Below are positions 6,155 through 51,035 of a stretch of DNA of 64,000 nt, one piece after another (positions within the stretch are counted from its first letter, which is position 1; each line of letters begins with the position of its first letter). A program made the translations under genes and the position numbers. Source of the DNA: Coffea arabica (Eukaryota; Streptophyta; Magnoliopsida; Gentianales; Rubiaceae). The notes under the pieces were generated by a model. That model was not told the origin of the DNA. It saw nothing but the letters and a program-made list of their open reading frames with translations, and did no database searches. The stretch lies in assembly GCF_036785885.1 (NCBI RefSeq), contig NC_092312.1:12418001-12482000 (forward strand), read 5' to 3'.

Positions 6155-7701
6155 AAAAAAAAAAGTTTAGCCTTCTGACAATAGTAGTATCTCCTTAGTT
6201 ATGGTCGAAAAAGTGAAAATCCTTGGTAGGATTTGACTTCTAATCCGTCATGGCTTGTTTAGCTTAAGAAAATGAAATAATAATGTTAACGTTGTTAACA
6301 TAATTGCCTGTTAACGTTGTTAGAGCATTAAGAAAATGAAATCTCCTTTTTATTTATGCCAACTCATGATTTTCGTCCACCTCACCGAATCCAACAAATT
6401 CCCTAAATTTACCGTAGCTATTTGAGGCCAACTCTGAAGTTAGAAAAACTGAGAAAATTGGAAAATACTGCTACTAATAGGAAAAGAATTAGTACTATTA
6501 CTTTTTATTGGAATTGTATCCAAGTCTTTTACCAAATTATACACATGTGGAATTATATCATATGCGCTCCCCATCAGCCAAGGAAACAAGAACTTGAGAG
6601 AATCTCTATCTCATTAAGATAAACATGTGTGAAGTGCTGTGGTACTGTCAGTAAATACGGAGAACATGCCAACAAAGTAAATGGCACGTAATAGCATCAG
6701 ACAGCAGAATAATTTTCTGGCTATAGTTTGAATCAATGGCAATGCATGTTCATGTAAGAGGTAATTCCTTTACTTCTTTCCTGGTGAGAAGACTAAATTC
6801 TGTCTCATTGACAACATTCTGATCAGTAAAGATAAGACTGTTGGCAAAAATAATAATAATAATGCTGCTCCTAGCAACTGGGGCAAACACAACTTTCACG
6901 TGGTTAAAAGCTGATGTCTTGACAGAAGAAAGCACTTGTACGTAAACTTTGGCAACGAGGATGTTGATGTTAGGGGTATGTATAAACTTACTCGGAAACA
7001 TGATTATTTTCAAGCGATTGTTCGGATAAGAGTTTACTTGGATGATTTATTTGAGATATTTACGGTAACACTTTTTATGATGTGATGTATGTGAAATAAA
7101 AAAGTGATTGAAAAAATAAAAAATGTGATTGAAATTTGTGAAGTAAATTATTTTGTTTCAAATTATTTCAATCCAAACACACTAATTAATGTAATAAGGG
7201 TAGCCCCAAACTCCCTAAATAGGGGTGGGTGGCTGTGGGTATAATCAGCTTCTTCTATCACGCTGTCTCAATTACATGGTGATGGTGGTGGTTTTTTTTT
7301 AACTCATGATAATACATATGAACTTGTTTGTTGCTTTGAATCTATTTTCCCTACTCCTAATTTCCTCCGCTTTAGTAACGGATGAATCGCTTTTCCTTAG
7401 CCCCAAAATAACAAGAGACAGAACGAAACTGCTAGCAATTAATAATAACATTGATTCACCGGCAGACTACTAATATTAATATTACATGAACGATTCATGA
7501 GTCTCAAAATTAAACTAATACATAGTAGCTGACCTTTCGCCCCCAAAAAAAAAAAAAAAGTAACGCGAAAATGCATTAAAAACAGTAATGACAGCAGACT
7601 GACTACCCCATTGAAAATCAAACCTCAAAAACCAAACGAATTTTAGACTTTTTAAAGATCATCATGACGAGATAGATATTTGTTTGCTAAGCGAGATTTC
7701 C
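6155..7701. other. Spacer between convergent F-box copies
   Basis: Contains the 3' regions of both F-box copies and one MITE-like repeat (7033-7180). A short direct repeat of TAACGTTGTTA appears near 6285-6322. No other gene is seen. Confidence 0.5.
7033..7180. mobile_element. Degraded MITE, GTGTGTTTGGATT family
   Basis: The right end reads AATCCAAACACAC like the better-preserved copy at 20068-20232. The left end is mutated (TTTACTTGGATGATTTATTT). Both share an interior with a poly-T/AT block and a GTATGTGAAATAAA-type motif. No coding capacity and no clear target-site duplication. Confidence 0.5.
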
Positions 7702-8699
7702 TCAGAGACTAGCTCTAATCTCCTTCACCATTTCCAGTACAGTTTCAACAAAAACCTCATCTTTATCTTCAAAAGCGGATTGTACTTTCAAGTAATCCTC
7801 GGACTCATTGGCCAAGAAAAGAGTAAAAGATTGCCCGATTGGGCCTGAAAATGGAAACTTAACTCTAGATTTAGCACTCGTCACCCTCTGCAAATACTCG
7901 GTATTTCTTGGATTATCACAAATCCGCCTCATCTGATCAGCGAGATCAGTTTTTCCCAGATCTTGCTTGCTCCGGTTCTTGGAATCTGTGATGGTCACCC
8001 GGAGAAGGGATTCCGGTAAGAAAGGCAGGAGGGTTTCCATTATCGAGAAAGTGTAAAAACCCATAGCCAGATGACAATGACATTCAACGGTAAGCAACCC
8101 AATTTCCCTAGCATAAATGTTGTTAGCATCATCAAGACAACTTCTGGAAGCATAGAGATATATAAAAGTATCTGATTCGAAGTCGAGCTTCCACTTCATC
8201 ACAGGTTCCTTGATGAAACGGATACTGCCTGTGGCCTCGGAATCTTCCGGCGGATACAAGATTTCCACATGGAGGGATTCCATGCGGGAGAATTTAGCAA
8301 GAAATTTGGTGGTGAGATGAGACAGAAACTCGAAATCCAAGTGCTCGAAGTGGAAAGTCAATCGCTGGGACTTCTGGAGGAAGGGAAACATCCCCAGGGG
8401 AGCTATGAAACAGTGGACTGGTTTTCCTGGAAAACAAGCAGGAGTGGTTTTCTTATCGAGTTCCTGGCGGGGAATCCGAAGTGGGATCTCGACAGAAACA
8501 TTTTTGGTTTGGTAAACAAGGGAAGAGAAACGTTTAGAAACCAAAGAACATCTGCAGAGAGAATTAGCCTCAGAGATTTTGTTAAAGATATGGGATACTA
8601 TCAAACCATCCGGTAAGAGTTTGAAGTGGGGATCTTCTTGCTCCTTTTGGCTTTTCCTCCTCCTGCAACTATGGTTAGACTAGCCACCAAATCCTCCAT
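7702..8699 (-). pseudogene. F-box protein paralogue with broken 5' end
   Basis: The minus-strand open frame ends at 7702 and contains the F-box (FKLLPDG, IVSHIFNKISEANSLCRCSL, VSKRFSSLVYQ) and the same C-terminal landmarks as the copy at 5140-6154 (METLLPFLPESLLRVTITDS, DLGKTDLADQ). Reading upstream in this frame a TAG is met near 8682 before any ATG, and the first in-frame ATG lies far inside the protein. An ATG at 8697-8699 opens a neighbouring frame (MEDLVASLTIVAGGGKAK), so a frameshift between about 8690 and 8630 probably separates the original start from the F-box. Alternatively an unrecognised 5' exon supplies the start. C-terminal two thirds are undamaged, so the break is recent or an assembly error. 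Confidence 0.75.
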
Positions 8700-11315: not shown

Positions 11316-13919
11316 ATGGACAAGCTTAAGTTTGATGTGCCAAAGTTGCCAGGATGGGTCTCTGCTCTGATAAAAGTTGGAGTTCTTGGAGGTGCTACCA
11401 TATAAACTTTGTCAAAGAGCCTTTACAATGTGGAAGGAGGTCAGAGAGCTGCTGTATTCAATCGTATTGTTGGTGTGAAGAGAAGGTGCGTACACTTAAA
11501 CCAATAGTTATCATGTCAAATAGCTTTGTTCCTTCTATGTTAATGTTAAATTATAAATTCCCAGTTTCCTTTTGCAACTAGACCTTCTTTTATTTGTCGT
11601 TCTCTGATCTGCAATGCGTTTTATATTTTAAGTTTCTTCTTAATCTTTCTGAAAAGGTTTTTCTAATTGGTTAATTGTTCTTGAATGTAAAATTGTTACA
11701 TGTTCAGTTGTCTATTTTCCTGCAATATGTTTCCTATCTCATGTTGAAATAGCAGAGAAATTTTATCCACTTGAAATGAAACTCTGCTCATCACGTCAAA
11801 ATGTTATTCATATGTGCATCTGTTTTGCTTCATTCTGAATTGAGTTTAATGATGATTTTCCTGCATCCTTGATGTTACATAGCCTGAAATTCATTTTATA
11901 GTTGTCAGGTTTCCTTAGGGTGTAAATTGTTTACTTAGTTAGAATAGAAAAAAAAAATCGCTGAAGACTCATCCCTTTCTCATCATTGCCAACGCTAATG
12001 TTGAACAACCCTATGCATATTTATTGCTTTGAAATGTTGGTGAAATGGTTTAATCCTCTACAGTGTTTCAGATATTCTACATCAGGTACTTAAAAAGCAG
12101 TTGTATGATTATCTCCAACATATTTAACTAGAATAGATCACTTTTATATTGAACATCTTGTTTTTAACAGAAATGCCTCCTAAAATATGCTGATATTTGC
12201 TGTTTCATTCTTTCAACCAAGGACTGCAAAACAATCATAATGATGGACCCAACTTCTGTATTTTCTCATCTCCTTATGTCATCCTTCTTCAATTTTCCTT
12301 TTGATGTTTACTTTTGGATGTTGAGAGGAAGGCAGGGTAAGGGAAAGAGTCAGTTGGAAAAAATGACATCTCCATCATCATGTAGGTGTACCCTGAAGGA
12401 ACTCATTTTCTGATTCCCTGGTTTGAAAGACCCACAATTTATGATGTTCGTGCACGTCCCTATATTGTTGAGGGTACTTCGGGCAGCCATGATCTCCAAA
12501 CGGTAAGTATTCTTGCGCTTATTAAGTTTACAATTAATATACTGTTTTGCCTATATAAACTGTTGAAGGTGGACTTTATTGACCTAATTAACTTAATGAA
12601 TGCTCCTCATGCACCATTTTAAGCTAAAAGAAACCTTGCCGTAGTGTAGTTGTCAAAAGAAATTAGAATATCCGAGCTCTCCTATATTTGTTTCCAGCTT
12701 GAGAACATACATCGCAAGAAACGGTTTCACCATTGGGAATCTATTCTAGCCTTCTCTTCTCATGCACCACATTTTGGCTGTTCCAAATTCTGAGCAGTTT
12801 AGGAGTCTTATTTTCTATTTGTTTCATGCTTGGATCTTCGACTTGTTTCCTATTTGCCATTTTCTTACAGGTTAACATAGCTCTTCGCATTCTTACGCGC
12901 CCTGTGGCAGATCAACTACCAACCATCTATCGAAGCCTTGGTGAAAACTTCAATGAACGGGTCCTGCCGTCTATAGTTCATGAAACTCTGAAGGCCGTTG
13001 TTACTCAGTACAATGCAAGCCAGCTCATAACTCAAAGAGAGGTGAGGACCACATAATTGCTCCAGCAGAGGTCTATAACTGTAAGGAGAATAAAGAGAGA
13101 CTTTTGATATACAACAACTTGTTATTATCTGGAAGTGCATTTCATCGGTCACATAAACATGAAGGTGACATAAACACGAGCCTTTCTAAGTATGACAGTC
13201 AGATCAATACATTGATCTTTCCAACAGGTATCTGTCAGGTGCTTAGTTTTTAGTTGCGCTCAATGATACATTCATTGGATCCTGTTTTCTCTTTTCTAAG
13301 ACTACAGGAGGTTTACACTTATTGATTACTGTTTCTGCAGACTGTCAGTCAGGAGATTCGAAGCCTTTTGATTAAAAGAGCAGCTTCCTTTAACATCGCA
13401 CTTGATGATGTGTCTATAACTAGTCTGACTTTTGGAAGGGAATTTACTGCTGCAATCGAGGCAAACCAAATAGCTGCACAAGAAGCTGGGAGGGCTAAAT
13501 TTGTTGTGGAAAAAGCTGAACAGGAGAAGAAAAGTGCAATAATCAGAGCACAGGTAAAATAATTTCTTCAGTTAATTACACATTATTGTATGTGCAAAGT
13601 TTTGTTGTGTCTGTTTTTCATCCCGTGGCTCTCTCATCTCTCTTATTGTACTGAAAACATGTAACCACAGGGTGAAGCCGCGAGTGCAGAGCTAATTGGT
13701 AAAGCTACCGCAGAAAACCCTTCATTTATCAAACTTAGAAGAATTGAGGCTTCAAAGGATGTTGCTCAAACAATATCAAACTCTGCTAATCGCGTGTACT
13801 TGAATTCAGATGACCTGTTGCTCAACCTTCAGGGAATGAACTTGTCCACCTCTAGTCTGATCGAGAAAATGAATTGCGAAGGATCTCAGCTTTTCTTAAT
13901 TTGGGGGATCTTTAGGTAG
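11316..13919 (+). pseudogene. Type II prohibitin (PHB) with broken exon 1
   Basis: Prohibitins form ring complexes in the mitochondrial inner membrane. Exons read: 11316-11485, 12386-12502, 12871-13041, 13341-13553, 13671-13919, all with GT-AG borders. Type II signatures are clear: SLYNVEGG in exon 1, VYPEGTHFLIPWFERPTIYD in exon 2, [20 protein letters not shown] and [12 protein letters not shown] in exon 3, [20 protein letters not shown] in exon 4, ANRVYLNSDDLLLNLQGMNL in exon 5. Exon 1 is disabled twice: TAA at 11403-11405 (codon 30, where the family has a tyrosine-type residue), and one missing base near 11480 so that GVK(E)K no longer joins exon 2 in phase. The C-terminus also runs on about 25 residues with no family resemblance. 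Exons 2-5 remain open, so decay is young or a downstream ATG is used. Confidence 0.85.
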
Positions 13920-19045: not shown

Positions 19046-19164
19046 TCTTCCCATCAGCCCCTACCCACTATCAAAAGCCCCCCCTCCACCACACCACCTA
19101 GCTATGATCACTTTTTTCTCTCAAAAATCCCAAAAAAAGGGTAGACAGTAGAAATTAAACCACC

Positions 19165-19623
19165 ATGCAGCAAGCAACACCATATACAACCTGGCCTCCG
19201 ACCACCGCAACCTCCGCCGGCGGCTCCACCAGCCTCGAGTCACAGCTAAGTGACAGTAGCAAAAGTGCGGAAAATGATGGTATGACAAGTAGTACCAGTC
19301 AGGTAACGAGACTGGTATCAGAAAATGCAGTGATTGCGTTTGGGAGACGAGGGTGCTGCATGTGCTATGTTGTCAAGCAACTGTTGCTGGGCCTTGGCGT
19401 TAATCCCACCATTTTTTACGTTGACGAGGAAGATGAAGGGGCAATAATCGATGAGCTATCGAAAATCGCAGGCGTTTTGGAAGGGGATGGCAATGGGAAG
19501 GTGCAATTTCCGGCTGTTTTTGTGGGCGGAAAGTTGTTTGGAGGGTTAGAAAGAGTGATGGCTACACATATTACCGGCGAATTGGTGCCTATGTTGAGAG
19601 AAGCTCGAGCTCTGTGGCTTTGA
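19165..19623 (+). CDS. GRXC9: CC-type glutaredoxin, GRXC9/ROXY19-like
   Basis: A single-exon, 152-residue protein. The N-terminal 45 residues are Ser/Thr-rich and variable. The glutaredoxin fold starts at about residue 50 (VSENAVIAFG) with the plant-specific CC-type active site GRRGCCMC (CCMC), followed by LLLGLGVNP, the glutathione-binding FPAVFVGGKLFGGLE, and HITGELVPML. It ends in ALWL, the motif known to be required for binding TGA transcription factors. GRXC9 (GRX480) is a salicylate-induced nuclear redox regulator that represses jasmonate genes through TGA factors. The TGACG cluster upstream fits the known feedback control. Intact, with start, stop and length as in the family. The closest alternative is another ROXY member. 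Confidence 0.93.
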   Translation: MQQATPYTTWPPTTATSAGGSTSLESQLSDSSKSAENDGMTSSTSQVTRLVSENAVIAFGRRGCCMCYVVKQLLLGLGVNPTIFYVDEEDEGAIIDELSKIAGVLEGDGNGKVQFPAVFVGGKLFGGLERVMATHITGELVPMLREARALWL

Positions 19624-26014: not shown

Positions 26015-26566
26015 TCAAGAAATAGATGAACGGAAAAATTCTTGATCATTTGTGTTCCCAAACTGACCTTCGCCGCCAATCAAACAAGCAAAGAAGTCCT
26101 TGTCCAAGTGATTCCTGGATCCATGAACCAAACTCGAGCTTCCAGCTTCATCACAACTGCTAGAGATCTGGGAGGAAAGAGAAGAATAAGGCGTATTGTT
26201 CACCGATAACAGCATTTCTTGAGCCTTATGCAACTCCTGCTTAAGCCTCTCAACTTCACTTTGAAGCCTCTCATTATCTGCTAACAGATTTTCCAGTCTT
26301 AGCTGCAAAGCCTTGTGATCAACCTCAAGGTTTTCATTCTTCCACCGGGCACGCTTGTTTTGGTACCAAATTGCAACCTTGCGAGGTGGTAGACCCAGCT
26401 CGTGGGCTAGTTGGGACCTGCGATCTGGATCCAGTTTGTTATTGAAATTAAAGCTTTTTTCTAGGAGACTAACCTGATCTTGAGTTAGCCTTTTCTTGTG
26501 AAATTTGAGTTCGTTTTTTCGAACGCTTGACTGAATGTGGTGGTAATCCATTGCAGTTCTTGCCAA
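26015..26566 (-). CDS. HD-Zip class I transcription factor, ATHB-52-like
   Basis: A single-exon, 183-residue protein. A homeodomain spans about residues 20-75 ([16 protein letters not shown] through [13 protein letters not shown]), directly followed by a leucine zipper (about 78-120, [30 protein letters not shown]). HD-Zip I proteins bind the CAATNATTG pseudopalindrome as dimers in the nucleus. The order, small size and KKRLTQDQV start resemble ATHB-52. Odd point: helix 3 reads WYQNKRAR where HD-Zip I members nearly always have WFQN. The C-terminal 60 residues are Ser-rich and unmatched. CTATATAG near 26729-26736 could be the TATA box. Alternatives are the LMI1 or ATHB-21/40/53 groups. Confidence 0.9.
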
Positions 26567-27627
26567 GAGAAACGTTCAAAAATGGCAAATAACTCTGACA
26601 ATTATATGTGACAGGCCAATAAATTGGAGATCAAGATGTTAAGTTGGGCAGCACATCGTAATCATGCATGCATTTGGCTGGTCATCACGTGGGCTGTGTC
26701 CTACTACTAATTGAAAGTCTAGTCCTACTATATAGGATTAGACTTCAGTAATTGGTGAACTTGTTTTTCCAAACCAAGAAAAGGGCAAAAAAAAAGAAGA
26801 AGATAAATGCATGTTCAAGAAAGCTATATATATTGGAGAAACAACACGTAAAAGCACCATGATTTGGTGTTGCGTGCGGTAATATTTCAAAGGCCAACGT
26901 AAGAATTGAAAGCGTATTGATCTGTTGATCTCCGTACTAGAAAAAAAAAATCAAAATATCAGTTATAAAAAAAAATCAACACATCAGTTGCAAAATTGTC
27001 GACGCATGTCTTGTCTGTATCTGTAATTTGTCAATGGATATGGTGGGGGAAACGCCAAGTCAATGCTTGACAAAGCATACGTCTTTGGTTAATGCCCACC
27101 TACAGCTCATGATTTGAACAATTCTATTTTGGTTCGCTTTCCAACATTTGTGACCTCTCTCTCTCTCTCTCTAAGTTATAGATACAGTCTTCTCCTTCTT
27201 TTTTTTTTTTTTTTTTAAGATAAATTGACTTCGAGTGAAACTGGCTATAGCTGGATGCACTTCGACTGAGGAGAGCCGCCTCAATTGTTCAAAGTTGATT
27301 TCTTGAGGGGTTTCAGAATTGCATATCAGTTTCATGATGAACTTGAATAAGCTTTTAATAATAGTTAAGCTAAATCATTTCAAATTCAAGGTTACTCAAA
27401 CTTGTTGAAACTTGACTTTAGATTTTTTTTTCTTGACTTAGATTATTAACAAACAAAATTTGAACAACCTTTTACTTGATAAGCTCGAGTCAAATGTCGA
27501 GCAACACGATTCATATTTAAACCCTGTTCAATTCATCAGTTTTCATCTGTGAATTCATTATTCATGTACGTACGTAGAGGATAAATAGAACTCAAGGGTT
27601 GAGAGCTCATGACCCTTTTTATTAACC

Positions 27628-40124: not shown

Positions 40125-40134
40125 AGTGAATTTA
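40125..40134 (+). repeat. Left target-site duplication of the MULE
   Basis: AGTGAATTTA directly precedes the left inverted repeat and is identical to 51026-51035. Ten bp is within the 8-11 bp normal for Mutator-like elements. Confidence 0.9.
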
Positions 40135-40370
40135 GAGAAATTTCTAAAATTATTATGATTTTAAAAAAAATTCTACAAAGGGGGTATTTTGTGTACTGGT
40201 TTCTGTTTTTGGGGTGTTCGCATTTAGCAAATGCGAGCTCCTTGAGCTCGCATTTGATAAATGCGAACTCTCCTTAAATTTCGTAACAGCGAAAGTAAAA
40301 AAAAAAATAAAAAAAAAAAAGCTAACCTCGCATTTCAGAAATGCGAGTTGTATGTACCTCGCATTAAACC
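40135..40370 (+). repeat. Left terminal inverted repeat of the MULE
   Basis: Starts GAGAAATTTCTAAAATTATT. Against the reverse complement of the right end I count about eight mismatches and no gap in the first 140 bp; similarity ends at about 40370. It includes a palindrome of the unit AAATGCGAG / CTCGCATTT (40217-40253) and a further unit near 40328-40345. Confidence 0.88.
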
Positions 40371-40453
40371 ACAAAACCTCCGTTGTCCAGTGGGCGCTGC
40401 AAGCTGCAATTTTACAGTTATGATTATTGCTAGTGATCAAGTATGCACTATGT

Positions 40454-40610
40454 CCTGTGGGGTTTCAAGTCCCACATCGATGTTGGGGGGGGGGTTGGGT
40501 TTGGGTTGATAAGTCCCCTGGACACCTTCAAAAGTTGCCGGCTTTTGAAGGGCTGTTTGGGGATTAGGTTTATTGACAAAAGTCTGAGTCCGCTCAGGGT
40601 TTGACAAAAA
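40454..40610 (+). mobile_element. SINE-like insertion with 15-bp target-site duplication
   Basis: Perfect direct repeats AAGTATGCACTATGT at 40439-40453 and 40611-40625 flank a 157-bp insert ending CAAAAAA. A B-box-like GGTTTCAAGTCCC lies at 40461-40473. No A box precedes it, so the element is 5'-truncated or of another Pol III type. It inserted into the MULE after the MULE arrived or before its last transposition. Confidence 0.75.
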
Positions 40611-41062
40611 AAGTATGCACTATGTACCTATGTTGTTTGCTTTCCAATAACAGGATTCTAGATTTTGCCTAAAAATTTTTCTTTTTGCTTCAGTTGTAAT
40701 GCCATTCTCTCTTGCTGTATGAATTGATTGCAAATTGTAAATGAATTCTTGATTTACAATTTGCAATGCAAATTTCTACAAATTTTACTGCTTAAGGCTC
40801 TAAATTCATCACAACTGGAAAAAAAAAATCCCATAATATTGACATCAATAGTTGATAATAATTTGGGGGAATAAATCAACACCAATCTAGCAAGCTTTTT
40901 GGTTGGACTTTATCTTGCATCCGATAAATACGAATTCCTAGAAAATTGCATAAAAATTGTAATAATTTTTAAATTACTTTTTAAATTTGTTTATTTGTTA
41001 AATTCATTCTTAATAATTTACCATAAACTCTTTGTTCTTAAAAAATATATGTAGCTGATGTT

Positions 41063-41367
41063 GTAAAGTGTATTAATCTAGTACGTCAACAATTTTTGCA
41101 AAGTGTATTAATATAGTAATTCAATAATTTAAGTATCTATAAACTAATTGAGAATTCGTAGTTACTCAACAACTTATATTAAAAGTAACATATTATATAC
41201 CACATAAAAAAGAAAAGTTAGCAATTATTATTTATAGTGAAATAAAAAATAAGAATGAACAAGAATAGTATTTTATTATTTTGTTATTGATACTAGTAAT
41301 AATTGATTAATCAATTTCTCTAATTTGCTATCATGTAGTGGAAAAGTTAAATTTCTTAAATGACATT
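41063..41367 (+). repeat. Direct repeat, copy 1 (within the MULE)
   Basis: About 305 bp, from GTAAAGTGTATTAAT to CTTAAATGACATT, closely similar and in the same orientation to 49201-49501. Ends do not look like LTR ends (no TG...CA). Non-coding, AT-rich. Confidence 0.85.
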
Positions 41368-41369
41368 TA

Positions 41370-41635
41370 TAATACATTTATAAACTTGTACATAAATAAA
41401 TGTATTTATGTATTGATAAAAAAACTGTAAATGTATAAATGTATTATATTATATATAATACGTAATATAAATATATTTATAAATGTATAAATTATAAATG
41501 AATATTATAAAAATCTATAAATTATAATTTATAAATATATGTTAATATTATGTATAAATGTATAATTAATATTATTTGTAATTTATAATTTTTATTGTTT
41601 AAATATTTATATACATTTATGCATTTATAGCAGCA
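41370..41635. repeat. AT-rich block of TATAAATGTA-like words
   Basis: Degenerate repeats of ATTTATAAATGTATAAAT-type sequence. Almost no G or C over 260 bp. No function inferred. Confidence 0.7.
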
Positions 41636-41689
41636 AAACTTAACTAATGAGAGGGATTTATTCATACTCCATTTTATTTTAATAGTGAA

Positions 41690-41825
41690 AACGCCTTTTT
41701 ACGCGAAAATCGACACTTTTAGGTGAAGATTCTCAGTTATTCAACATTTCACTTATTAAAATTGCTAAGCATACTCTTAATTTCGATACCTTTTTACGCG
41801 AATGTCGACATTTGTAGATGCCAAC
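41690..41825 (+). repeat. Two copies of a TTTTTACGCGAA motif
   Basis: CCTTTTTACGCGAAAATCGA (41693 on) and CCTTTTTACGCGAATGTCGA (41790 on) lie about 97 bp apart in the same orientation; the downstream 15 bases are also similar. Confidence 0.65.
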
Positions 41826-42596
41826 CCCCGGTTACTCGGTATGTGAATCATTGGAGTAGAAGATTAATATATATATTTTTTCTCTGTCTCTCTTTTTTTT
41901 TTTGAAATGATTTCTTTTCCCTCTAACATCATTAAAGGAAGAATTTGGCCTTGTTTTGACTATATCAATCACTTACTTATAAAATGAAGTGAAAATGAGA
42001 AATATCAGTAACCTTGCAAATTTGTAAGCATAATTTTTCTTATTTAACCGAATATACTTTCTAAGCATAATAATTCTTGCCAAACAAAATAAGAACTAAA
42101 CCTTCCAAAATACATATAGCATTCAATCCAATGGAACAGTTTGAGCACTTAAAATGTGAACATTTTGACCATTAATATTGGAAAATATTTTTAGGAAAAT
42201 TTTGACAGAGTTCCCCACAAAAATGGACAAAACTCCCTGCCAACAACCTCAAGACAATATTTCCAAATAAAAGTTTAAGCCATAGACAATCAAATTCATG
42301 CATTTTAAGACACAATCACCACAAAATGTATGTAATCCCTCCCCCACACTTAAAATCTACAATGTCCTCATTGTAGAGGAAGGTACAATAAAACAAAACT
42401 TCCCACTTGGTAAGTGGTGATGCAGTTTGAACCCCTTAATCCTCACGACCATCCAAATTCAGTCATGCTTGAAACATCAAGGGTACTAATTATCTTATAG
42501 GTAGAACAAGAAACTCCAATAAGAAAACTACAAAGTTTGAACCGAACACAATAAAAGAAAAATAAAGCATATTCAGATGGAATCCTCGGAAGGTCT

Positions 42597-43952
42597 TCAT
42601 GACTGCGCAGAACGAGGGTCTACTGCCTCCTCAGCTCCCTGAGATGTACCACTAGGCCCCTCCTCTTGATGAGGGGTAGGAGTAGGTGAGCGGTGAATGT
42701 GGAAATGATCTTCCATCGCTCGAAGGCGACGATCCTGCCTGTCTAGTCGCTCAGTCATCATCCGCTCGGTTTGGTCAATGCGCTCCATCACACGTGTCTC
42801 CATGCAGCAGATGGCATTGAGGATCTCTTGCAACTTGGATCGCGGCGGAGGCGGTGGTCGTGGAGTGGGAGGAGGAAGGGTCTGCTGTGCCTCCGTCTCT
42901 TGAGCTTGCTCTTGTTGTTCAGTGTGAGGTGGAGGCTGAGTGGAGGTCGAAGCTTCTCCTGTGTCCCGAACTAGAGCAGCTCCAAAATCCGTAGGAATGC
43001 CTAAAGCCTTGAGTATAGAGGCATTGACCTCTTCAGCAGACCGAGTCACCACTGCTCGTTCGGTTCCAATAGGAACCTTGAGCTTCTCAAAAATGAGGGA
43101 GAGGAGCCGGGGGAACCCGAAACATGTATGACCGGCCCCCATGCGAGCTGTGGTCCTCATGTAACTGATAATGATGCTGGGCAGAGGAATTCCAGTCATA
43201 TGATTACCTATACCATGCATCATTTTATCGAGGAAGTATAGGTCACTGTTGCGGAGCTCCCGTTTTCCACTCCGTTTTGGTACCATATTGAAGGCAAAAA
43301 GATAGAAAAGCAGGTGGTACCTATGCTCGAAGGAATCGGCATATACGGTGAGCTTTTTCGAACTTCCTCGCTCACGGTATTGACCCTTAAGACGTGCCAC
43401 AGCTTCTCCCACTTGCCATGGGTCACGTGCCTTGAACTCCTTAGTCAATTTGATATCTTCTCCTGAGTCTTTGAGTTTGGCCCACCTGGCAACTTTGTCT
43501 CGAGTGAGAGCCACTCGTTTGCCTCGGACCCAGGATTCGATCAGATTGCCACTATGGCTATGTTTGTCTTCCACATTGGCATAAAACTCTCGGATCAGGT
43601 TAGGATAGTAATGCTTGGGCAACTTGAGTATGTCCTCCCAACCAAGTCGCTTGAAGGCAGTGGAGATCTTGTAATGGTCATCCACCTCCGGCGCCAAGTG
43701 CTTCTCAACTATTATTTCTTTGTCTAAACCGGCTTCGTACCACTGCTGATTCTCAATTGATGTGAAACGTGTGGTATCGTAGTCCGGAGGTGGTTCGTCA
43801 CGACTGGTAGATGCCGTCTTACGCCTAGAACGAGGTGGGGACTGAGGAGAAGGAGATTCGTCTTCAGGCGACTCCTCTTGTAAAGAGGGTGTATGTTCCT
43901 CACTCGATGAAGGTGTAGGAGTGCGAATCACTGCCCTTCGTGTGCGAGCCAT
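42597..43952 (-). CDS. TE-encoded 'putative plant transposon protein'
   Basis: Intact 451-residue frame from MARTRRAVIRTP (the upstream in-frame M at 43982 is less likely). A Ser/Pro/Glu-rich head (to about 60) is followed by a globular region (about 65-310; HYYPNLIREFYANV, ESWVRGKRVALTRDKVARWA, RSGKRELRNSDLYFLDKMMH, TCFGFPRLLSLIFEKL), a Pro/Gln-rich linker, and a helical tail (CCMETRVMERIDQTERMM). This matches a family common in plant genomes and annotated only as a putative transposon protein; its biochemical role is unknown and I see no DDE, integrase or RT motifs. It lies on the same strand as the transposase, 2.5 kb downstream. Either it is a second MULE gene or it belongs to another element that inserted here. 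Related words (CAGAGTT-CCCC ... CCTGCCA) flank it at about 42200 and 44040. Confidence 0.7.
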   Translation of the reverse strand: MARTRRAVIRTPTPSSSEEHTPSLQEESPEDESPSPQSPPRSRRKTASTSRDEPPPDYDTTRFTSIENQQWYEAGLDKEIIVEKHLAPEVDDHYKISTAFKRLGWEDILKLPKHYYPNLIREFYANVEDKHSHSGNLIESWVRGKRVALTRDKVARWAKLKDSGEDIKLTKEFKARDPWQVGEAVARLKGQYRERGSSKKLTVYADSFEHRYHLLFYLFAFNMVPKRSGKRELRNSDLYFLDKMMHGIGNHMTGIPLPSIIISYMRTTARMGAGHTCFGFPRLLSLIFEKLKVPIGTERAVVTRSAEEVNASILKALGIPTDFGAALVRDTGEASTSTQPPPHTEQQEQAQETEAQQTLPPPTPRPPPPPRSKLQEILNAICCMETRVMERIDQTERMMTERLDRQDRRLRAMEDHFHIHRSPTPTPHQEEGPSGTSQGAEEAVDPRSAQS

Positions 43953-44692
43953 GATGTCTGGATTACAAACAAGATTCAACACAAATTAGAAGCAATACAA
44001 AACATAACAAACACAATTGTCTTAATGAGTTAAGAAAATTTCGGCAGAGTTTCCCCTTGAAAAAGGGCTAAACTTCCTGCCAGCTGCATCCAAAAACAAG
44101 CACAGAACCTGGTTAAATCATTTTAGATACAGTGGTGGGCATGTATAATATGAATTTCAATCCCCTTTGTCAACACATGGTTTGAACAATCCACTTTTCG
44201 ATTTTGTTAATCCCATGTTTCAATTAGAAGGTCATTTAAAAGTCCAATCTCATGAGAATTCATGCATATTTCAACAATAGAGTATAATCTCCAAGTGAGT
44301 ATGGCCTATTAATTAATAGGGAAAATGGCCATTTTCGTCCCTAAACTTTTTTTTCTCGTCAATTTAGTCCCTAACTTTTATTTTTGGCCAATTTAATACA
44401 TGAACTTAATTTTCGGATCCAATTAAGGCCTTCTACGGCGGCGCCACCACCTGAAAGTAATTTAGCTCCTAATTTAACATTAAACAAGGGCATTTTGGGA
44501 ACTTCAGGTATGAATTGTAATCAAAGCCCTCTTGTTGCCTTAGAAGCAGATGAAGAAAATGAACAACTTTTGAATCTGCTTTTGAATCTGTAGAAGCTTT
44601 TGAAAAGCCCTCTTGTTGAATCTGTAGAAGATGAATAACCTCTTGTTGAATCTGTAGAGACTACACTACCATTATTATTTAAATCCCTCTGA

Positions 44693-44858
44693 TCAATAAC
44701 TGGGTACTTCCCACTCCTGCACTTCTTCTAGCATTGCGTCCGGATAACCTATGCCTAGCTTAGCTAAAACCCATCCATCCAGCTCCTTTTGCGCTTGTCT
44801 ATCAGACCCTCCAACAAAACCTGCTACTCTGATGGTAATCCTATCTTTTGCCAAAATC
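44693..44858 (-). pseudogene. Captured exon of an unidentified gene
   Basis: On the minus strand an open frame of 54 codons starts right after a splice-acceptor-like TTAATTTAG and ends at a TGA (44693-44695). It reads ILAKDRITIRVAGFVGG, then a Gln/Lys/Glu-rich helix and LDGWVLAKLGIGYPDA, ending EWEVPSY. Codon use and the acceptor look genic, but I do not recognise the family. Confidence 0.5.
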
Positions 44859-45428
44859 CTAAATTAAGTAACAAACGCACGCAGTTTCCTCTTTTTGTTG
44901 CCCCAGTAATGAAGGCTAACCATTGTTCAAGGTAACTAACTGTGTGTGTTACTATATTCAAGACAACAAGAAGTTCCCAAAATGCTGAGCCAAAATTCCT
45001 AAGCTGGTGACAAACACTTTTGAAGTTTTAAGGCTCAGATATGTCAAAATTAGGTCAGGGAAAGGGAAAGTGACGCTGCCATGGCTGCAACATCGGTTGT
45101 AACGTGATGTGAGGAAAACATTGAAAGTTTAAACAGACAGAGGACCCAACCCAGAAAGAGGGATGGATCCTCTCAAACCCTTTCTCTCCCTCTCCCTTTC
45201 CCCCTCACATTTGCATCCGGGTTGCCCAGCCAAGATACGGGTCGGACTTGTCTCAAACACACTGACCCATTTTCTCTATAAGTTAAATCTTCACAGCCCT
45301 CTTGTTGCCTTAGAAGCAGATGAAGAAGAAGTACAAGGGTCAGTCATGTCAAGAAGAAGCAAGACATTAGAGATCATTAAGGCTCCGTTTGGTTCGCCGG
45401 AAAGTCACATGGGAGTATTAAAGTCAGG

Positions 45429-45640
45429 CTCTTGAGGAAGCTCCTGGTCAAGCTGGAGAAGTTGGTCAAGCGTGAGGGGTTTAGGGCCAAGGCAGCCGTT
45501 CTGGGGTTCATGGGATCCGTGATCGAGTCCGGTGGGGCTCCGGATGATGCTGAGCAACTTGCTGGCGTGTCTGGTGCAGTTTTTGAGCAGTGAGGATTGG
45601 GCAGCGAGGAAGGCCGCCCTTGGGCAGCGAGGATTAGTTG
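45429..45640 (+). pseudogene. Captured TORTIFOLIA1-like HEAT-repeat fragment
   Basis: The plus strand reads EGFRAKAAVLGFMGSVIESG to about 45560; then, one base shifted, NLLACLVQFLSSEDWAARKA to about 45622. In TORTIFOLIA1/SPIRAL2 microtubule-binding proteins these two pieces are consecutive in the N-terminal HEAT repeats. The copy has no start, a frameshift near 45562, and stops soon after. Only about 65 codons were captured. Confidence 0.7.
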
Positions 45641-46413
45641 AGAAAAGAACTGTTCCATGAAGGAGGAGGTGGGTGGTTGGTGGCAAAGTTCCCAAAATGC
45701 CCTTGTTTAATGTTAAATTAGGAGCTAAATTACTTTCAGGTGGTGGCGCCGCCGTAAAAGACCTTAATTGGACCCGAAAATTAAGTTCATGTATTAAATT
45801 GGCCAAAAATAAAAGTTAGGGACTAAATTGACGGGAAAAAAAAGTTTAGGGACGAAAATGGCCATTTTCCCTAATTAATACCAAATTACGAACTAATGCG
45901 CTAGCATTCTTCTTTATGAGTGCCAACATTCTCTAAGAACAAGGAATGTTCAATCAAAAATTTCACATGTTGAAGCTTAAAAGTTTAGAAAAATAAACAG
46001 ATGACTATAATAACGATTTTGTCAATGTTAAGCTTTCCAATGTAGTTGACATAGAGAAGTAAAATGACCCAATTATACAATTCATGTGCATAAAGCTTAA
46101 AATTAAGAAGGAAAAGCTGCACAATTCTACCAAATCCACAAATCCAAAAAACGAAGGATTAAAATAGTCAACTGCTTGTAGAGAACTAAGCATGGTTAGA
46201 TGAGAAATTTGATAAAGATATCCTTTTCAGGGGAGTATAACGCCGTGGTCATTTGTCTCGATTGAAATACAGAGCTGCTAAAAATAAGACCAAAATTATG
46301 ACTCGATTGAAACATTGATCAACAACATGTATCTCATAAATCATATGAATTCCATAATCCCAAAAATTACAGATATCATAGTACACTGGTTCGTATCCCT
46401 AAAACGGATGACA

Positions 46414-49140
46414 TCAAGCTCTAAAATTTGGACAATTTCTTCTATTATGGCCCGATTGATGACAATTTGTACATCTTCTTGGCTCCTCTGGGTCTCTCTC
46501 ATCCATCTCATTCCGAATTCTTCTAGCTCGTACCCTTCCAGCCCGACGTGCAACGTATTGACTACTATTTGCCCGTAGCTCCCAATCTGGTTGGAACCAA
46601 GTATCCGGATGTGGCAAAGGGCTAAACTTTCCTGAATACTGCACCGCCCACCGCCTTTTTGTAAATTGAGAATCTACAAGTGCATCAGGATTATCACATC
46701 GGTGCCTGCACACGGCCATCACGTGCGAACAGGGAAGTCGGTAGCACTGCCACTTACCACAAGAGCATGTTTTATCAAAATACTTTACCGTTTGTGTATT
46801 ACCCCCTTTGCCATCCACACGTCTACCAGTCACAATTTTGTACACCCCCGATGAGCCATCGAACTCAACAACCCTGTGGGTTCCTGCTTTCAGGTCCGAA
46901 TTCTTAAACCGCCGCCATATCTTTGGAGGAAATGGATAACGGCAATGTCTAGCATCCTCTCTTCTTGTTTTAAACAACTCAACTGTCCGATGAAATGTCA
47001 TATCAATACAAGCCCGGATAGGCAAATGACGAGATCCTCTAAGTACATTATTGTAACTTTCGGAAATGTTGGTTGTAAGAATACCCCAACGGTTCTCACC
47101 GTCATGTGTTAGACACCACTTCTCAGCTCCAATGTTAGACAGATAACTCCATGCATCTGGAAACATGTTCCTCAATTCTCGTTTGAATGCCCGCCACTTG
47201 CGCAATTGTCTGGCTTTTCCCATTGCCCAACATAACCTTCTAAGGTGCAAGCCTTTGAAGTGACTCATTAGGTTACTCCTAACGTGTCGTAGACAAAATC
47301 TATGAAAGGCCAAAGATTCTTGCCAATAGTCATAATGTGTCATGGCATGGATGATACCATTATGCCGATCCGAAATGACACAAATAGGATACCGATCACG
47401 GGCCACATTGTATCTTAGTTGTTCCATGAACCAAGACCAACTAGAAATAGTTTCTTCGTCGACAATGGCATAGGCTAGCGGAATAATGTGGTTGTTGGCA
47501 TCTTGCGTAACTGCAACAAGTAGTTTGCCTTTATATTCGCCCCGCAGATGAGTGCCATCAACACATATAACCGGTCGACACATGTGAAATGCATCAATAG
47601 CCGGTCCAAAAGCCCAGAAGACATACTTAAATGTCTTCAGACGATCCGTACTATCAGAATGGTGCAACCATCTGATCACAGATCCCTGATTTGACTGCAT
47701 AAGTGCATCAACATATTTCGGTAGTTCAGCAAAATTGGCATCCCAAGAACCAAATATAAGTTCAATAGCTCTGCGTCTGCCGTACCAAGCCTTTTTATAA
47801 GAGACATCCACCTTCAAAACTTTCTTAACATGGCTTACTATATTCTTTACTTTAAACCCAGGATCATCTTCAATGTCCCGAACTATGTGTCTAGCAATAA
47901 CCGAAGATGTAAGACTAGCATTGCTATTACTCATCAAATCACCAACACAATTATGGTCGTTGACCCATTTGGTTATTTGCCACAGTCCATGAGTCTTTTT
48001 TTTCACTGCTCGGACACACCAGTCGCATGGAGGATACGATACGTTGGCCACAGTGATGGTGCTCCTTTCAAATGCAGATTTACATTTGGCAATCCAAGTA
48101 TTACTCTTGCTCTCAACAACCCTAAACTCCCTATTATGATTGATAGACCACATTCTAATAGCCCTGATCAGCTGTTGTTTGCTCTCAAATCTCATATGTA
48201 GACATATGTGATTATTATCCTCACTAAATGTCACAATACGTTCCAACCCACTTTCATCAGTGAATTGGTCGTCATCATCTATATTTCCAAGGTTAGAGAA
48301 GAATTCGAATCCTCGTGGAACATACGAAAGGTTGGCAAATGCAGCAAAGGGCTGTTGGTTCCCAAGATCCTGGTGGACTACACGTCTTTCATTTTCGCCA
48401 TCTGAGTCACTGTCTGACACATCTACCGACTCAGATTCTTCCACATCTTCTACATCATTTTCCAAATCATCATCTACCAATGTGTTACAATGACTTGGAC
48501 CAGCAGTCGAATCGAAGCCATAAGAAGGCACATGATTCGGCGATACGTGGTCTCTAAAACTTTGAATCGAGTCAAGGCCTTAAACATATTCAACATCCGT
48601 CCTTAAGCCTGACGTGAACCGTGGCTCTACCACGTCCCTAACACAATCCCCATGTGGTCGTTGTGATACCGATGCTGTCTCTGGTACCACTGTACTAGAG
48701 TAGGATCGATACCTAGTTGGATCCATGCATGCATGGACAAGCGACATCATCGGCCCAATATTGGTAGTTGGTGGAATGAATGTGCTACTGACGAGAGGAT
48801 TTTGGACTATTTCCTCCTTCTCGATATAAAGTTCAGCGATGTATGGGACAAGTTCGTTCCAGACATCATACATTATCTCCAGAGTTTCATCATCCACCAC
48901 TGGAGAGACATTATAAGAAGTACGGCCACAAGGTTGGCGGAGAAATAAATTCAACTTGAACAGCCCCCTATCGACCCCCATGTATTCATAAATTCTATCC
49001 ACCAACTCATCATATCCAATTCTATGCCGTAATGAAAATGTACGGTTGGAAGTACGAGGCAAATAACAAATTGACCCATCTTCATAGTGTATTTTACCTC
49101 CCCAATAAAGAGATACTCGCAGAGGTCTTTCTATAGACAT
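46414..49140 (-). pseudogene. MURA-type MULE transposase with one in-frame TAA
   Basis: Two open frames, 49140-48580 (186 residues, from ATG) and 48579-46414, lie in the same frame separated only by TAA at 48580-48582, giving about 908 codons. Part 1 is an N-terminal segment (RVSLYWGGKIHYEDGS). Part 2 has an acidic linker, a MuDR DNA-binding type region (HICLHMRFESKQQLIRAIRM), the MULE DDE core (CVDGTHLRGEYKGKLL with first Asp; CVISDRHNGI with second Asp; TTNISESYNNVLRG with Glu), a SWIM zinc finger (CSCGKWQCYRLPCSHVMAVC) and a CCHC knuckle (CTNCHQSGHNRRNC). All catalytic and zinc ligands are present. The cut-and-paste enzyme acts on the element's terminal repeats. It is either inactivated by one recent nonsense change or made by readthrough. 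Confidence 0.85.
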
Positions 49141-49200
49141 ATCAAAGAAAACAATCCCTATGTTGGAAAAAATAAATTAGAATTAGTAGTACAAAACTAT

Positions 49201-49501
49201 GTAAAGTGTATTAATGTAGAAGGTCACCAATTTTTGTAAAGTTTATTAATCTAGTAATTCAATCATTTAAGTACCTATAAAGTAATTAAGAATTCGTAGT
49301 TACTCAACTACTTATAATAAAAGCAATATATTATATACCACATAAGAAAGAAAGGTTAACAATTATTATTTGTAGTGAAATACAAAATAAGAATGAACAA
49401 CAATAGTAGTTTTTTTTTTATTGATACTACTAATAATTGATTAATCAATTTCTCTATTTTGTTATTATATATTTGAAAAGTTAAATTTCTTAAATGACAT
49501 T
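49201..49501 (+). repeat. Direct repeat, copy 2 (within the MULE)
   Basis: Same orientation as 41063-41367, 8.1 kb apart. It starts about 60 bp upstream of the transposase ATG (minus strand), so this copy may contain the transposase promoter. Confidence 0.85.
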
Positions 49502-50194
49502 GAATTCAACATTTGGGAAAAAATCTTTTACTCACATACATTTTTTTTGTATAAAATATTGACCTACGAAATTAAGAAATAAACAAATTTTGACTAATCT
49601 AGTCTACTTATTTAAACAATTGTTTAAAGAAAAAAAGGAAGAATTTAAAAAGAAAATTAACAAATATGATACATTAAAAGGGGTATATTTTTCCAAACAT
49701 ATCATTCAAGAGGGCAAAATGCCTATTATTATAGTTTAGGGGATAAATTGTAACTGGGTAAATAGTTTATAGGGATTTTTTGCATTTAACCCTTTATCAA
49801 ACGATTATTACGTGATTATTTTTCTTATACAGTACAAGATATAATTTGCTATAAATGCAAAAATAAAGAGCGAGCATAATAATCATTTCCAAATTTTATT
49901 TGTTTATTGTAATTTATTATTCCTAATAGATATATATATTTTGAAAAAATTACTTTTTATTATATATATTTTGAAATATATATATATTTCACATTGTCAT
50001 TACTTTTTTTTAAAAAAAAATTTGATAGAATCTCCCCTTAAAAGTCTAATTACTTTATTTAATGCTCACAAGAGCTTAGGGAAGGTTTTTATTGTGAAAA
50101 ATTGGAAGTTTTATGGATGAAATGGAAAATTAAGGTTTCGGTGAGAAGGGGGAAGAGTAAATCTGGAAACGGAGGAACCGAGCCCTCGGTTTCA

Positions 50195-50385
50195 GACATA
50201 TTGCGAAAAGATCCGAGCACGGATCCGTTCTTGAAGTCCTCGGATCCCACAAGCCTTGGATCTGTCTCACCAGGAACACAGAAGATCCCTCGGATCCGGT
50301 CGGGTTTACTTGGATCCGACCTCGTATCTTATGCATCCGGGGTCGGATTTGTCTGGATTGACTTAGATCCGACCTCGGATCTTAC
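50195..50385. repeat. Block of GGATCCG/CGGATC motifs
   Basis: GATCCGA, CGGATCC, GGATCCG and related words recur about ten times in 190 bp, for example near 50219, 50242, 50296, 50310 and 50371-50378. It sits between the transposase and the right TIR. The overlapping plus-strand frame (50102-50473) reflects these repeats; I would not call it a gene. Confidence 0.5.
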
Positions 50386-50789
50386 TTCCTCTGCACTAAC
50401 TGCAGAAAGTGCCATTTCCCAAACTTTTGCTCCCTTTTCCAAACTAATTGTCAGACTAACCATGGCAAGCTAATGCGACTCAAACCGAAAGAACAACAAC
50501 GATTAATAAATTGCCAAAACATAACAGCCAGCTCAATTCAGCAAAACAAAAATCTTGTTGTAACAACAAACAAACTGACAAACAAAAAAAAGAGATAAAT
50601 TCATACCTCTTATGGCAAGTTGGGAGGGAGGGGGGAGATGCACGGATTCCAGACAGCTTGGCAGAAATGGGACAGGTTGGTTCCAGCGGTTTTTTGAATT
50701 GGGTTTCAGACTGAGTTTTGTTGCATTTTTTCTTTGTTGGTTTTTTTCTTTTCCGCACAACAATAATGCGAGGTACATGACCTCGCATT

Positions 50790-51025
50790 TCAGAAATGCG
50801 AGGTACATACAACTCGCATTTGTGAAATGCGAGGTTACGTTTTTTTTTTTGATTTTTTTTTTTACTTTCGCTGGTACAAAATTTAAGGACAGTTCGCATT
50901 CATCAAATGCGAGCTCAAGGAGCTCGCATTTGATGAATGCGAAGACCCCAAAAACAGACACCAGTACACAAGATACCCCCTTTGTAGAATTTTTTTTAAA
51001 TTCATAATAATTTTAGAAATTTCTC
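50790..51025 (-). repeat. Right terminal inverted repeat of the MULE
   Basis: Inverse of 40135-40370. The AAATGCGAG/CTCGCATTT units occur as a palindrome at 50905-50940 and again at 50782-50832; this end has one extra unit pair on the inner side (to about 50768). Confidence 0.88.
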
Positions 51026-51035
51026 AGTGAATTTA
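51026..51035 (+). repeat. Right target-site duplication of the MULE
   Basis: AGTGAATTTA, identical to 40125-40134, directly follows the right inverted repeat. Confidence 0.9.

Follow-up and report, generated by a model that had tools for sequence, protein, structure and literature searches.

A decayed three-gene MULE in Coffea arabica and a candidate self-regulation cassette common to MULEs and LTR retrotransposons

The stretch of Coffea arabica DNA analysed here (the window: 64,000 nt of GCF_036785885.1, NC_092312.1, 12,418,001 to 12,482,000, forward strand; element positions are window positions) holds at 40135..51025 a genuine but damaged plant DNA transposon, a MULE. It is an internally deleted, non-autonomous derivative of a three-gene family with terminal inverted repeats (TIRs), which we call MULE1. 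One of the three genes, matching PF20167 (Transposase_32), travels with clusters of GATCCGAG half-sites (motif A), and we put at roughly 55% the probability that gene and palindromes form a VANC-like cassette for sequence-specific self-regulation, probably by anti-silencing, that is common to class I and class II transposons. The ends of the element are as follows.

40135..40365, + strand: left TIR, 231 bp, with AATGCGAG hairpin motifs; copies found in the genome
50795..51025, - strand: right TIR, 231 bp
40125..40134: target-site duplication (TSD) AGTGAATTTA, left copy, exact 10-mer
51026..51035: target-site duplication AGTGAATTTA, right copy, exact 10-mer

The original prediction was of one well-delimited unit with intact ends, inverted repeats of about 235 bp and a perfect 10-bp target-site duplication, and our results bear it out on each of these points. 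The TIRs are 231 nt each, 94% complementary without gaps, and in the whole 64 kb the 10-mer AGTGAATTTA is present only at 40125 and at 51026, both times directly outside the TIRs. The window copy has the TIRs, the TSD (10 bp, in the 8-11 bp class) and the MULE-type transposase of a MULE. Both checks proposed with that prediction were positive, and neither of its refuting conditions applies. A genome search with the TIR gave 758 candidate places, 40 of them scored, several of which pair up as full elements with the same ends, and a perfect 9-10 bp TSD flanks five of the eight siblings checked for one; this rules out that the TIRs are independent dispersed repeats. For the insertion-free site, a query of the joined flanks matches a paralogous empty site at C4:12352864-12353104 (95%, a single alignment across the junction). 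The element would have transposed with its 10-bp TSD, presumably in cut-and-paste fashion, and intact siblings could still mobilise it in trans.

These siblings are about 13 kb long and carry three open genes in the same direction, encoding a 920-aa MULE transposase, a plant-mobile-domain (PMD) protein and the PF20167 protein. Against them, the interior of the window copy reads as follows.

46414..49140, - strand: MULE transposase, MULE and SWIM domains, a sub-threshold CCHC; frame interrupted once, by the TAA at 48580-48582
42597..43952, - strand: PF20167 (Transposase_32) gene, 451 aa, intact; C terminus coiled-coil-like by eye
46143..46261 (about): deletion junction, with about 4.4 kb of sibling C4 (4582-8995) missing
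44319..45871: nested element of 1,553 bp, MULE-like and non-autonomous, its inverted ends about 190 bp long and 97% matched
44310..44318: TSD TAATTAATA of the nested element, left, 9 bp
45872..45880: TSD TAATTAATA of the nested element, right, 9 bp
41062..41367, + strand: direct repeat, copy one, 306 bp, 89% to 49200-49501; close to an edge of the block in which MULE3 differs
49200..49501, + strand: direct repeat, copy two, directly upstream of the transposase gene

The transposase (MULE PF10551, E 6.5e-17; SWIM, E 1.8e-6; no relative found in a PDB search) had been predicted as near-complete, and its frame, open in the siblings, is indeed interrupted only by the single TAA. Since about 4.4 kb of sibling C4 is missing, the element is not full length, and the lost part holds the PMD gene and the motif cluster upstream of the PF20167 gene; stop codon and deletion together leave the copy without autonomy. 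Nested insertions had been predicted, one of which we confirm: sibling C7a holds the 9-bp TAATTAATA once. The three ORFs of the nested element that were scanned gave no Pfam match. The interpretation is upheld in part: the unit is one delimited MULE, its second gene is real and its siblings share its ends, but the copy is a decayed derivative and its second ORF is not peculiar to the MULE.

That ORF, predicted as conserved-looking, is real and intact. PF20167 is the only Pfam match of the gene (E 4.1e-21; 76.1 bits in the window and 80.4 in a second, related family, MULE3, against a curated cut-off of 45), and it is under purifying selection between families (dN/dS 0.08-0.10). A genome search with it gave 3,151 candidate places, 94 of them scored, and several of those examined sit in LTR retrotransposons; the gene brings palindrome clusters of its own. 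In particular, an abundant LTR retrotransposon (the C6 unit) carries a PF20167 gene downstream of pol with flanks similar to those in the MULE. Its gag, protease, reverse transcriptase, RNase H and integrase stand in Ty3/gypsy order in the two pieces scanned, and we take it to be Athila-like from the 3' PF20167 ORF and the layout usual for Athila elements. The parts of the window that concern this relationship are listed below.

41634..44082, - strand: retro-homologous segment, 78% nucleotide identity to C6:41950500ff, in the stretch that separates pol from the putative 3' LTR; includes the PF20167 gene
50059..50438: segment 5' of the transposase gene, 75% to the pol-PF20167 intergenic region of the retroelement (C6 4230-4622)
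50210..50381: motif-A cluster 5' of the transposase gene, four GATCCGAG half-sites at 50210, 50239, 50289 and 50374

As the closest non-MULE relatives found for the second gene lie in LTR retrotransposons, it might be thought part of a retrotransposon merely nested in the MULE. We find this scarcely credible: siblings C4 and C7b contain no gag or pol frame, and alignments between MULE1 and the retroelement are confined to the part between pol and the putative LTR (C6 994-4875 for copy C4, to 4902 for copy C5). Moreover, 13 copies of the gene are 94-100% identical, those with their context fetched occupying the same place in MULE1 copies, and a PF20167 gene sits at the corresponding place in both MULE3 and a further family, MULE2. 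MULE1 and MULE3 differ in a block (C4 1558-6289) whose extent nearly matches that of the retro-homologous pieces (C4 1857-6213). As for the direction of transfer, neither acquisition by the retroelement from MULE2 nor acquisition by the MULE from the retroelement is settled by AU tests on 25 of 30 PF20167 sequences (three without the searched start, one stop-shortened and one of unknown context being excluded), which reject neither a MULE/retroelement split (p 0.248 for DNA, 0.334 for protein) nor monophyly of the retroelement sequences (p 0.283).

The association of the gene with motif A is the first line of evidence for a cassette. The 16-bp palindrome occurs at 1,994 places in the genome (reversed control, 1), and its half-sites number 22 in MULE1 (copy C4), 20 in MULE2 and 18 in the retroelement, against 0.14-0.30 expected, with none in the remaining 53,089 bases of the window outside the element. 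The clusters lie upstream of the PF20167 gene, upstream of the MULE transposase and, in the retroelement, within the putative LTR. The hairpin motif of the TIRs, taken as a control, behaves differently (AATGCGAG: 18 in MULE1 copy C4, 19 in MULE2, 10 in MULE3, 0 in the retroelement). Between MULE and retroelement, half-site bases are 97-100% identical (62/64, 55/56, 62/64, 48/48) and the bases around them 68-80% (327/457, 334/491, 468/597, 482/600; Fisher 7e-8 to 1e-4 in four comparisons that are not independent, being reciprocal comparisons of two segment pairs). The clusters could in principle be repeats that expand by themselves through slippage or hairpins and match the type of PF20167 gene by coincidence or linkage, and the intergenic cluster of MULE1 copy C7b is in fact a tandem array (144-bp unit, 3.3 copies). 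However, this is very improbable given the excess identity of the motif bases, and the cluster in the putative LTR is no copy of the internal cluster, with which it shares matches of at most 23 bp.

Several observations count against the cassette reading. The exact 16-bp palindrome is scarce per element (two in C4, three in MULE2, four in the retroelement) and absent from C20, C7a, C15b and the window. In copy C20, 22 half-sites remain although its PF20167 region is missing; conversely, a 5-kb fragment at C9:42.96 has an open PF20167 frame and no half-sites, and lacks what corresponds to C4 4338-6091. Homology to the intergenic cluster of the retroelement is also seen in the cluster that precedes the MULE transposases. 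Since the gene and the cluster nearest to it sit together in the shared block, physical linkage makes part of the association hitch-hiking.

MULE3 provides the second line of evidence. Its transposase is 83% identical to that of MULE1 (dS 0.36), its PF20167 gene (type B) is only 33% identical to the MULE1 type (A), and its palindrome is a different one, ACACCGGCGCCGGTGT (motif B), the core of which occurs 14 times in MULE3 as compared with a single motif-A half-site. One type-B gene lies at C6:38623577-38624665; further PF20167 subtypes exist besides A and B, for instance in six MULEs whose PF20167 gene has the opposite orientation. Eight of the nine loci with the exact motif-B palindrome lie 5' of a PF20167-B gene at a distance of no more than 2.2 kb, the other 15 kb away. 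At up to one mismatch, 14 of 17 motif-B loci have such a gene; results at up to two mismatches (98 places) were left out because the control gave 91. Against a cassette, the other three of the 17 are orphans, 4 of 18 PF20167-B loci are without motif B even when one mismatch is allowed, the MULE3 copy read has one-mismatch forms and no exact ACACCGGCGCCGGTGT, and motif B lies there only 5' of the PF20167-B gene, with none 5' of the transposase. The PMD gene is present in MULE1, MULE2 and MULE3 whatever their motif and thus does not explain motif type.

A rather unlikely alternative, though one to be weighed seriously, is that the palindromes are sites of host transcription or silencing factors, and that PF20167 is linked to them only and has another role, e.g. 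structural or env-like. PF20167 has no recognised DNA-binding domain, and its PDB search gave one chance-level match only (a ribosomal protein, E 0.15), both of which also count against the cassette; nearest cluster and gene share one block, and passages of PMC11728184 consider an env-like nature for the extra 3' ORFs that Athila elements carry. This alternative is at odds with the pairing of two PF20167 types with two palindromes on closely related MULE backbones, with the further occurrence of motif A upstream of the transposase and inside the putative LTR, and with the predicted nuclear signal that the same account reports for the sunflower Athila PF20167 ORF.

If the cassette reading holds, the PF20167 gene would be one half of a transferable two-part unit, and the palindromic clusters in the control regions of its carriers the other. 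Judging from sequence, the protein would most likely dimerise via its C-terminal helix and bind the palindrome cognate to its type, with GATCCGAGCTCGGATC as the predicted partner site of PF20167-A. Once bound, it would keep or make the control regions active, most plausibly by countering DNA methylation, in the manner of VANC in the VANDALs of Arabidopsis. Gene type and motif of the Athila-like retroelement are those of MULE1 and MULE2, so that two transposon classes would share one regulatory protein. In MULE3 the corresponding block holds another pair of gene and palindrome. PF20167 might instead be a plain activator of its own and its carriers' promoters, with no part in anti-silencing. Clusters upstream of carrier genes and inside the putative LTR would suit this as well, nothing in the sequence speaks against it, and sequence cannot separate the two roles; we nevertheless regard it as distinctly unlikely.

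Transposons are known to counter silencing in a sequence-specific way through VANC, a protein that VANDAL-type MULEs encode in Arabidopsis. A 2022 paper, going by its title, reportedly treats VANC-type anti-silencing in eudicots. The present system resembles VANDALs, as far as described in the portion of PMC5735166 consulted, in joining a MULE to an extra gene and to family-specific short motifs clustered in non-coding DNA, and in that related elements with a different accessory protein have different motifs. It differs in that VANC consists of DUF1985 and DUF287 whereas the second gene here is PF20167 (DUF1985 gave a weak match below cut-off, E 0.0019, in the PMD exon only), and in that the motifs are palindromic and the cassette also occurs in LTR retrotransposons. 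The TIRs make no clear difference, because excerpts of the literature disagree on VANDALs ('non-TIR' in PMC13317346; TIRs of 46-174 bp in PMC6446971).

PMD-bearing MULEs (MDR, MUDR and related groups, in excerpts of PMC6446971 and PMC5418596) likewise combine transposase and PMD with TIRs and a 9-10 bp TSD, and the excerpt of PMC5418596 speculates that MULE-borne PMD acts in anti-silencing. Here a third gene, PF20167, unnamed in those excerpts, and a palindrome cluster are added; the 'unknown ORF' beside PMD in MULE-Solanaceae_1 (PMC6446971) could be a PF20167-like gene. Sunflower Athila also has an additional ORF matching PF20167 downstream of pol, although the portion of PMC11728184 consulted gives no palindrome motif such as we report. 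Pack-MULEs, in transduplication (treated also in part of PMC6446971), similarly acquire foreign DNA; theirs are host gene fragments, in contrast to the intact gene here, which is under purifying selection and common to another transposon class.

A wider reading, which we offer tentatively and to which we would not quite commit, is that PF20167 proteins may form a hitherto unrecognised class of anti-silencing factors that transposons encode and that act sequence-specifically, and that the cassette could be exchanged between LTR retrotransposons and MULEs as a common, changeable counter-silencing code. The PF20167 pairs would bear on the generality of transposon anti-silencing and on the function of the 3' ORFs of Athila; whether Athila ORFs modulate their own epigenetic landscape is named as a matter for future study in the part consulted of PMC12844716, a 2026 follow-up to the sunflower study. 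Two protein-palindrome pairs on closely related MULE backbones make directly testable predictions. If true, unrelated transposon classes would cooperate or compete via one regulatory code, such clusters would become predictable in plant genomes, and the protein-palindrome pairs would be candidate tools for sequence-addressed epigenome editing.

The window element, a copy of the MULE1 family, is delimited by two TIRs that come close to the inverted repeats of about 235 bp claimed in the original prediction.

Features of the window element
40135-40365: left TIR, 231 nt, 94% complementary to the right TIR
44319-45871: nested element, 1,553 bp, with TSD TAATTAATA
50795-51025: right TIR, 231 nt, 94% complementary to the left TIR

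The perfect target duplication claimed with them holds as well, AGTGAATTTA occurring exactly twice in the 64 kb (40125 and 51026), each time directly outside a TIR. An uninserted counterpart, also proposed as a check, is found on C4: when both flanks are joined around a single AGTGAATTTA, they match C4:12352864-12353104 at 95%, with the junction spanned by one alignment (query 54-300 of 300) and query 1-56 covered by a second matching piece, and by this alignment the C4 locus is a paralogous site without the MULE. The flanks have a 93-95%-identical paralogue at C4:12352707-12353104, which suggests a duplicated chromosome segment. The window copy is decayed: it has lost about 4.4 kb, the plant mobile domain (PMD) gene included, between positions 46142 and 46262, and the transposase, described as near-complete, is present as a frame but interrupted by one TAA stop. 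As for the nested insertions claimed, one was recovered (44319-45871), and its TSD TAATTAATA is present once in C7a, another MULE1 copy. A 306-bp direct repeat lies at 41062-41367, near one element end and at one border of the segment in which MULE1 and the related MULE3 differ, and at 49200-49501, just upstream of the transposase gene. The TIRs hold many AATGCGAG/CTCGCATT hairpins, candidate transposase-binding sites, which MULE1, MULE2 and MULE3 have in common and which the retroelement described below lacks. Host-type genes nearby are UFD1 (1265-1816), two F-box-like genes just under the Pfam cut-off (5128-5697, 7705-8679), a glutaredoxin (19159-19620) and a homeodomain gene with a weak leucine zipper match (26018-26575).

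Across the 1.198-Gb genome, in which the window is C3:12418001-12482000, the TIR query gave 758 candidates, 40 of them scored. Nine sibling regions were retrieved and a TSD was sought in eight; it is perfect, at 9-10 bp, in five, and none was recognised in C2b, C15c or C7b, the last with a shortened right TIR. C15c and C7b are 99.5% identical across 12.9 kb. Five TIR copies of equal score at C9:2205930-2570100 are perhaps a segmental amplification. In the siblings C4 (C4:15595060-15607889) and C7b, three genes share a strand: a transposase (920 aa), a PMD gene split over three open stretches (of 313, 160 and 206 aa) and a PF20167 gene (462 aa). PF10536 matches the first two PMD stretches (E 1.9e-50 and 2.7e-21) and not the third. 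Four copies (C4:8.0, C4:15.6, C7:10.6 and C15:49.4 Mb) are free of stops in the transposase, first PMD stretch and PF20167 frames.

The second gene of the original prediction is real, a PF20167 gene, but is not confined to MULE1, as it also lies downstream of pol in an LTR retrotransposon. PF20167 has 3,151 candidate places in the genome, of which 94 were scored (13 at 94-100% and 81 at 84-87% identity). At C6:41950500-41965499, the retrotransposon stands in tandem with a period of 11,503, its head-to-tail units 99.9% identical in the 3.5 kb of overlap seen, and a 1816-aa gag-pol frame (gag, protease, RT, RNase H, integrase) is followed by the PF20167 gene. Upstream of other PF20167 copies, the same pol end is in place in 8 of 12 stretches (81-99% identical); the remaining four are one retroelement fragment without that pol end, two MULE2 and one unassigned. 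We call the retroelement Athila-like because a PF20167 ORF is reported downstream of pol in sunflower Athila (PMC11728184). This presence in Athila suggests transfer from retroelement to MULE, a direction that our trees (25 DNA rows; 26 protein rows, MULE3 serving as outgroup) did not decide.

Two related MULEs allow the PF20167 gene to be compared with its backbone. MULE2 (C9:3493000-3508999) has the three genes of MULE1 in identical order. MULE3 (C6:38613500-38626600) shares 83% DNA identity with MULE1 in the transposase-PMD region, while its PF20167 gene differs (type B against type A; 33% aa identity, profile E 2e-22). The block that differs, C4 1558-6289 in element coordinates, nearly coincides with the stretch of MULE1 that matches the retroelement (1857-4300, 5035-5503 and 5707-6213); an extra matching piece, 12701-13022, lies 5' of the transposase. 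Between MULE1 and MULE3, dS is 0.36 for the transposase and 0.52 and 0.31 for PMD stretches, and is not computable for PF20167. Between MULE1 and MULE2, it is 1.38 for the transposase and 1.03 for PF20167 (dN/dS 0.097); PF20167 gives 1.02 (dN/dS 0.092) for MULE1-retroelement and 0.50 (0.097) for MULE2-retroelement. The long branches are strongly constrained; recent MULE1 copies look relaxed, given PF20167 dN/dS of 0.29-0.50 in the six pairs computed. Among 62 scored transposase loci, at least 48 have a same-strand PMD match within 4.5 kb and at least 32 a PF20167 match within 16 kb, lower bounds since both lists are partial; the 16-kb match of C12:12651397 may be chance. In six of these loci, the PF20167 gene is oppositely oriented, 5.4-7.6 kb from the transposase, as if a cassette had been inserted anew (C15:41.92, C17:41.08, C2:11.76, C4:51.47, C10:44.79 and C21:4.03 Mb; transposases 83% identical).

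The carriers of type A share motif A, the half-site GATCCGAG/CTCGGATC, with 22 occurrences in MULE1 (C4), 20 in MULE2 and 18 in the retroelement against a dinucleotide expectation of 0.14-0.30, and none in the remaining 53,089 bases of the window. Counts in further MULE1 copies are 28, 27, 27, 22, 19 and 6, and the window copy has 5. Some pairs form the exact palindrome GATCCGAGCTCGGATC (two in C4, three in MULE2, four in the retroelement; C20, C7a, C15b and the window lack it), which has 1,994 places genome-wide against one for the reversed pattern; among the first 50 places listed, all on C1, the palindrome stands some 1.2 kb upstream of the gene at each of the three scored PF20167-A loci in range. 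All three carriers have a cluster 5' of the PF20167 gene; further clusters lie 5' of the transposase in MULE1 and MULE2, at the other MULE2 end 3' of PF20167, and in the retroelement beyond the polypurine tract, a putative LTR whose cluster shares only matches of up to 23 bp with the internal one; a few isolated half-sites occur elsewhere, coding sequence included. In six comparisons of aligned non-coding DNA between MULEs and retroelement, the bases of the half-sites agree at 62/64, 55/56, 62/64, 48/48, 40/40 and 39/40, against 327/457, 334/491, 468/597, 482/600, 213/282 and 117/169 for other bases (Fisher 7e-8 to 1e-4 in the first four, which are non-independent, being reciprocal comparisons of two segment pairs).

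MULE3 has a single motif-A half-site. Instead, 14 occurrences of the motif-B core ACCGGCGC fall at 7861-8277, upstream of the PF20167 gene and mostly inside forms of AACACCGGCGCCGGTGTT; the core is absent from sibling C4, MULE2, the retroelement and the window. The exact palindrome ACACCGGCGCCGGTGT has 14 places at nine loci. Eight of these lie upstream of a PF20167-B gene by no more than 2.2 kb; at the ninth, C22:36.37 Mb, the distance to such a gene is 15 kb. The copy of MULE3 that was read holds the palindrome only with one mismatch. Allowing one mismatch, 14 of 17 loci have PF20167-B, and the orphans (C3:19840291, C4:19824966, C8:17640457) may have an unscored gene, as 112 of 3,201 candidates were scored. 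Two-mismatch rows were excluded (98 against 91 in the control). The 15-base form AACACCGGCGCCGGT falls in PF20167-B elements at 12 of 14 loci, with none for the reversed control. Conversely, 14 of 18 PF20167-B loci (at least 73% identity) have motif B, which is missing at C21:6.23, C2:41.72, C21:4.10 and C18:25.98 Mb. The TIR motif AATGCGAG serves as a backbone control, with 18 occurrences in MULE1 (C4), 19 in MULE2, 10 in MULE3, none in the retroelement and one in the rest of the window; it tracks the backbone, whose transposase and PMD gene are common to the three MULEs, whereas motif A or B goes with the PF20167 type. The MULE-borne PMD, for which PMC5418596 speculates on an anti-silencing role, is present in both motif-A and motif-B MULEs and therefore does not account for motif type.

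The element structure, the shared block, the motif clusters, the conservation of motif bases and the different gene and motif in MULE3 are direct observations. Their most likely explanation is a transferable regulatory cassette, in which we infer that the PF20167 protein would dimerise (its C terminus is coiled-coil-like by eye), that the dimer would bind the palindrome, and that binding would keep the carrier's control regions open, by anti-silencing or plain activation, which sequence alone cannot separate. A 2022 EMBO J paper reportedly deals with anti-silencing in eudicot MULEs. Against this reading, PF20167 has no recognised DNA-binding domain and a PDB search gave no relative. Moreover, motif B is seen only 5' of its own PF20167-B gene, copy C20 has the motif without the gene, and a 5-kb MULE1-type fragment (C9:42.96 Mb) has the gene and zero half-sites; in this fragment, the stretch expected to hold the cluster is missing, and non-autonomous beneficiaries would also look like motif-bearing copies without the gene. 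The literature searched, which takes in few subscription papers and may therefore miss an earlier mention, describes neither a PF20167-palindrome system nor a PF20167 gene in a MULE; for MULE-Solanaceae_1, PMC6446971 lists next to PMD an ORF given only as "unknown ORF". According to PMC5735166, VANC proteins bind short motifs in the non-coding parts of VANDALs and strip methylation, with related VANCs acting on different motifs. A PF20167 cassette would work along the same lines, using a different family of proteins.
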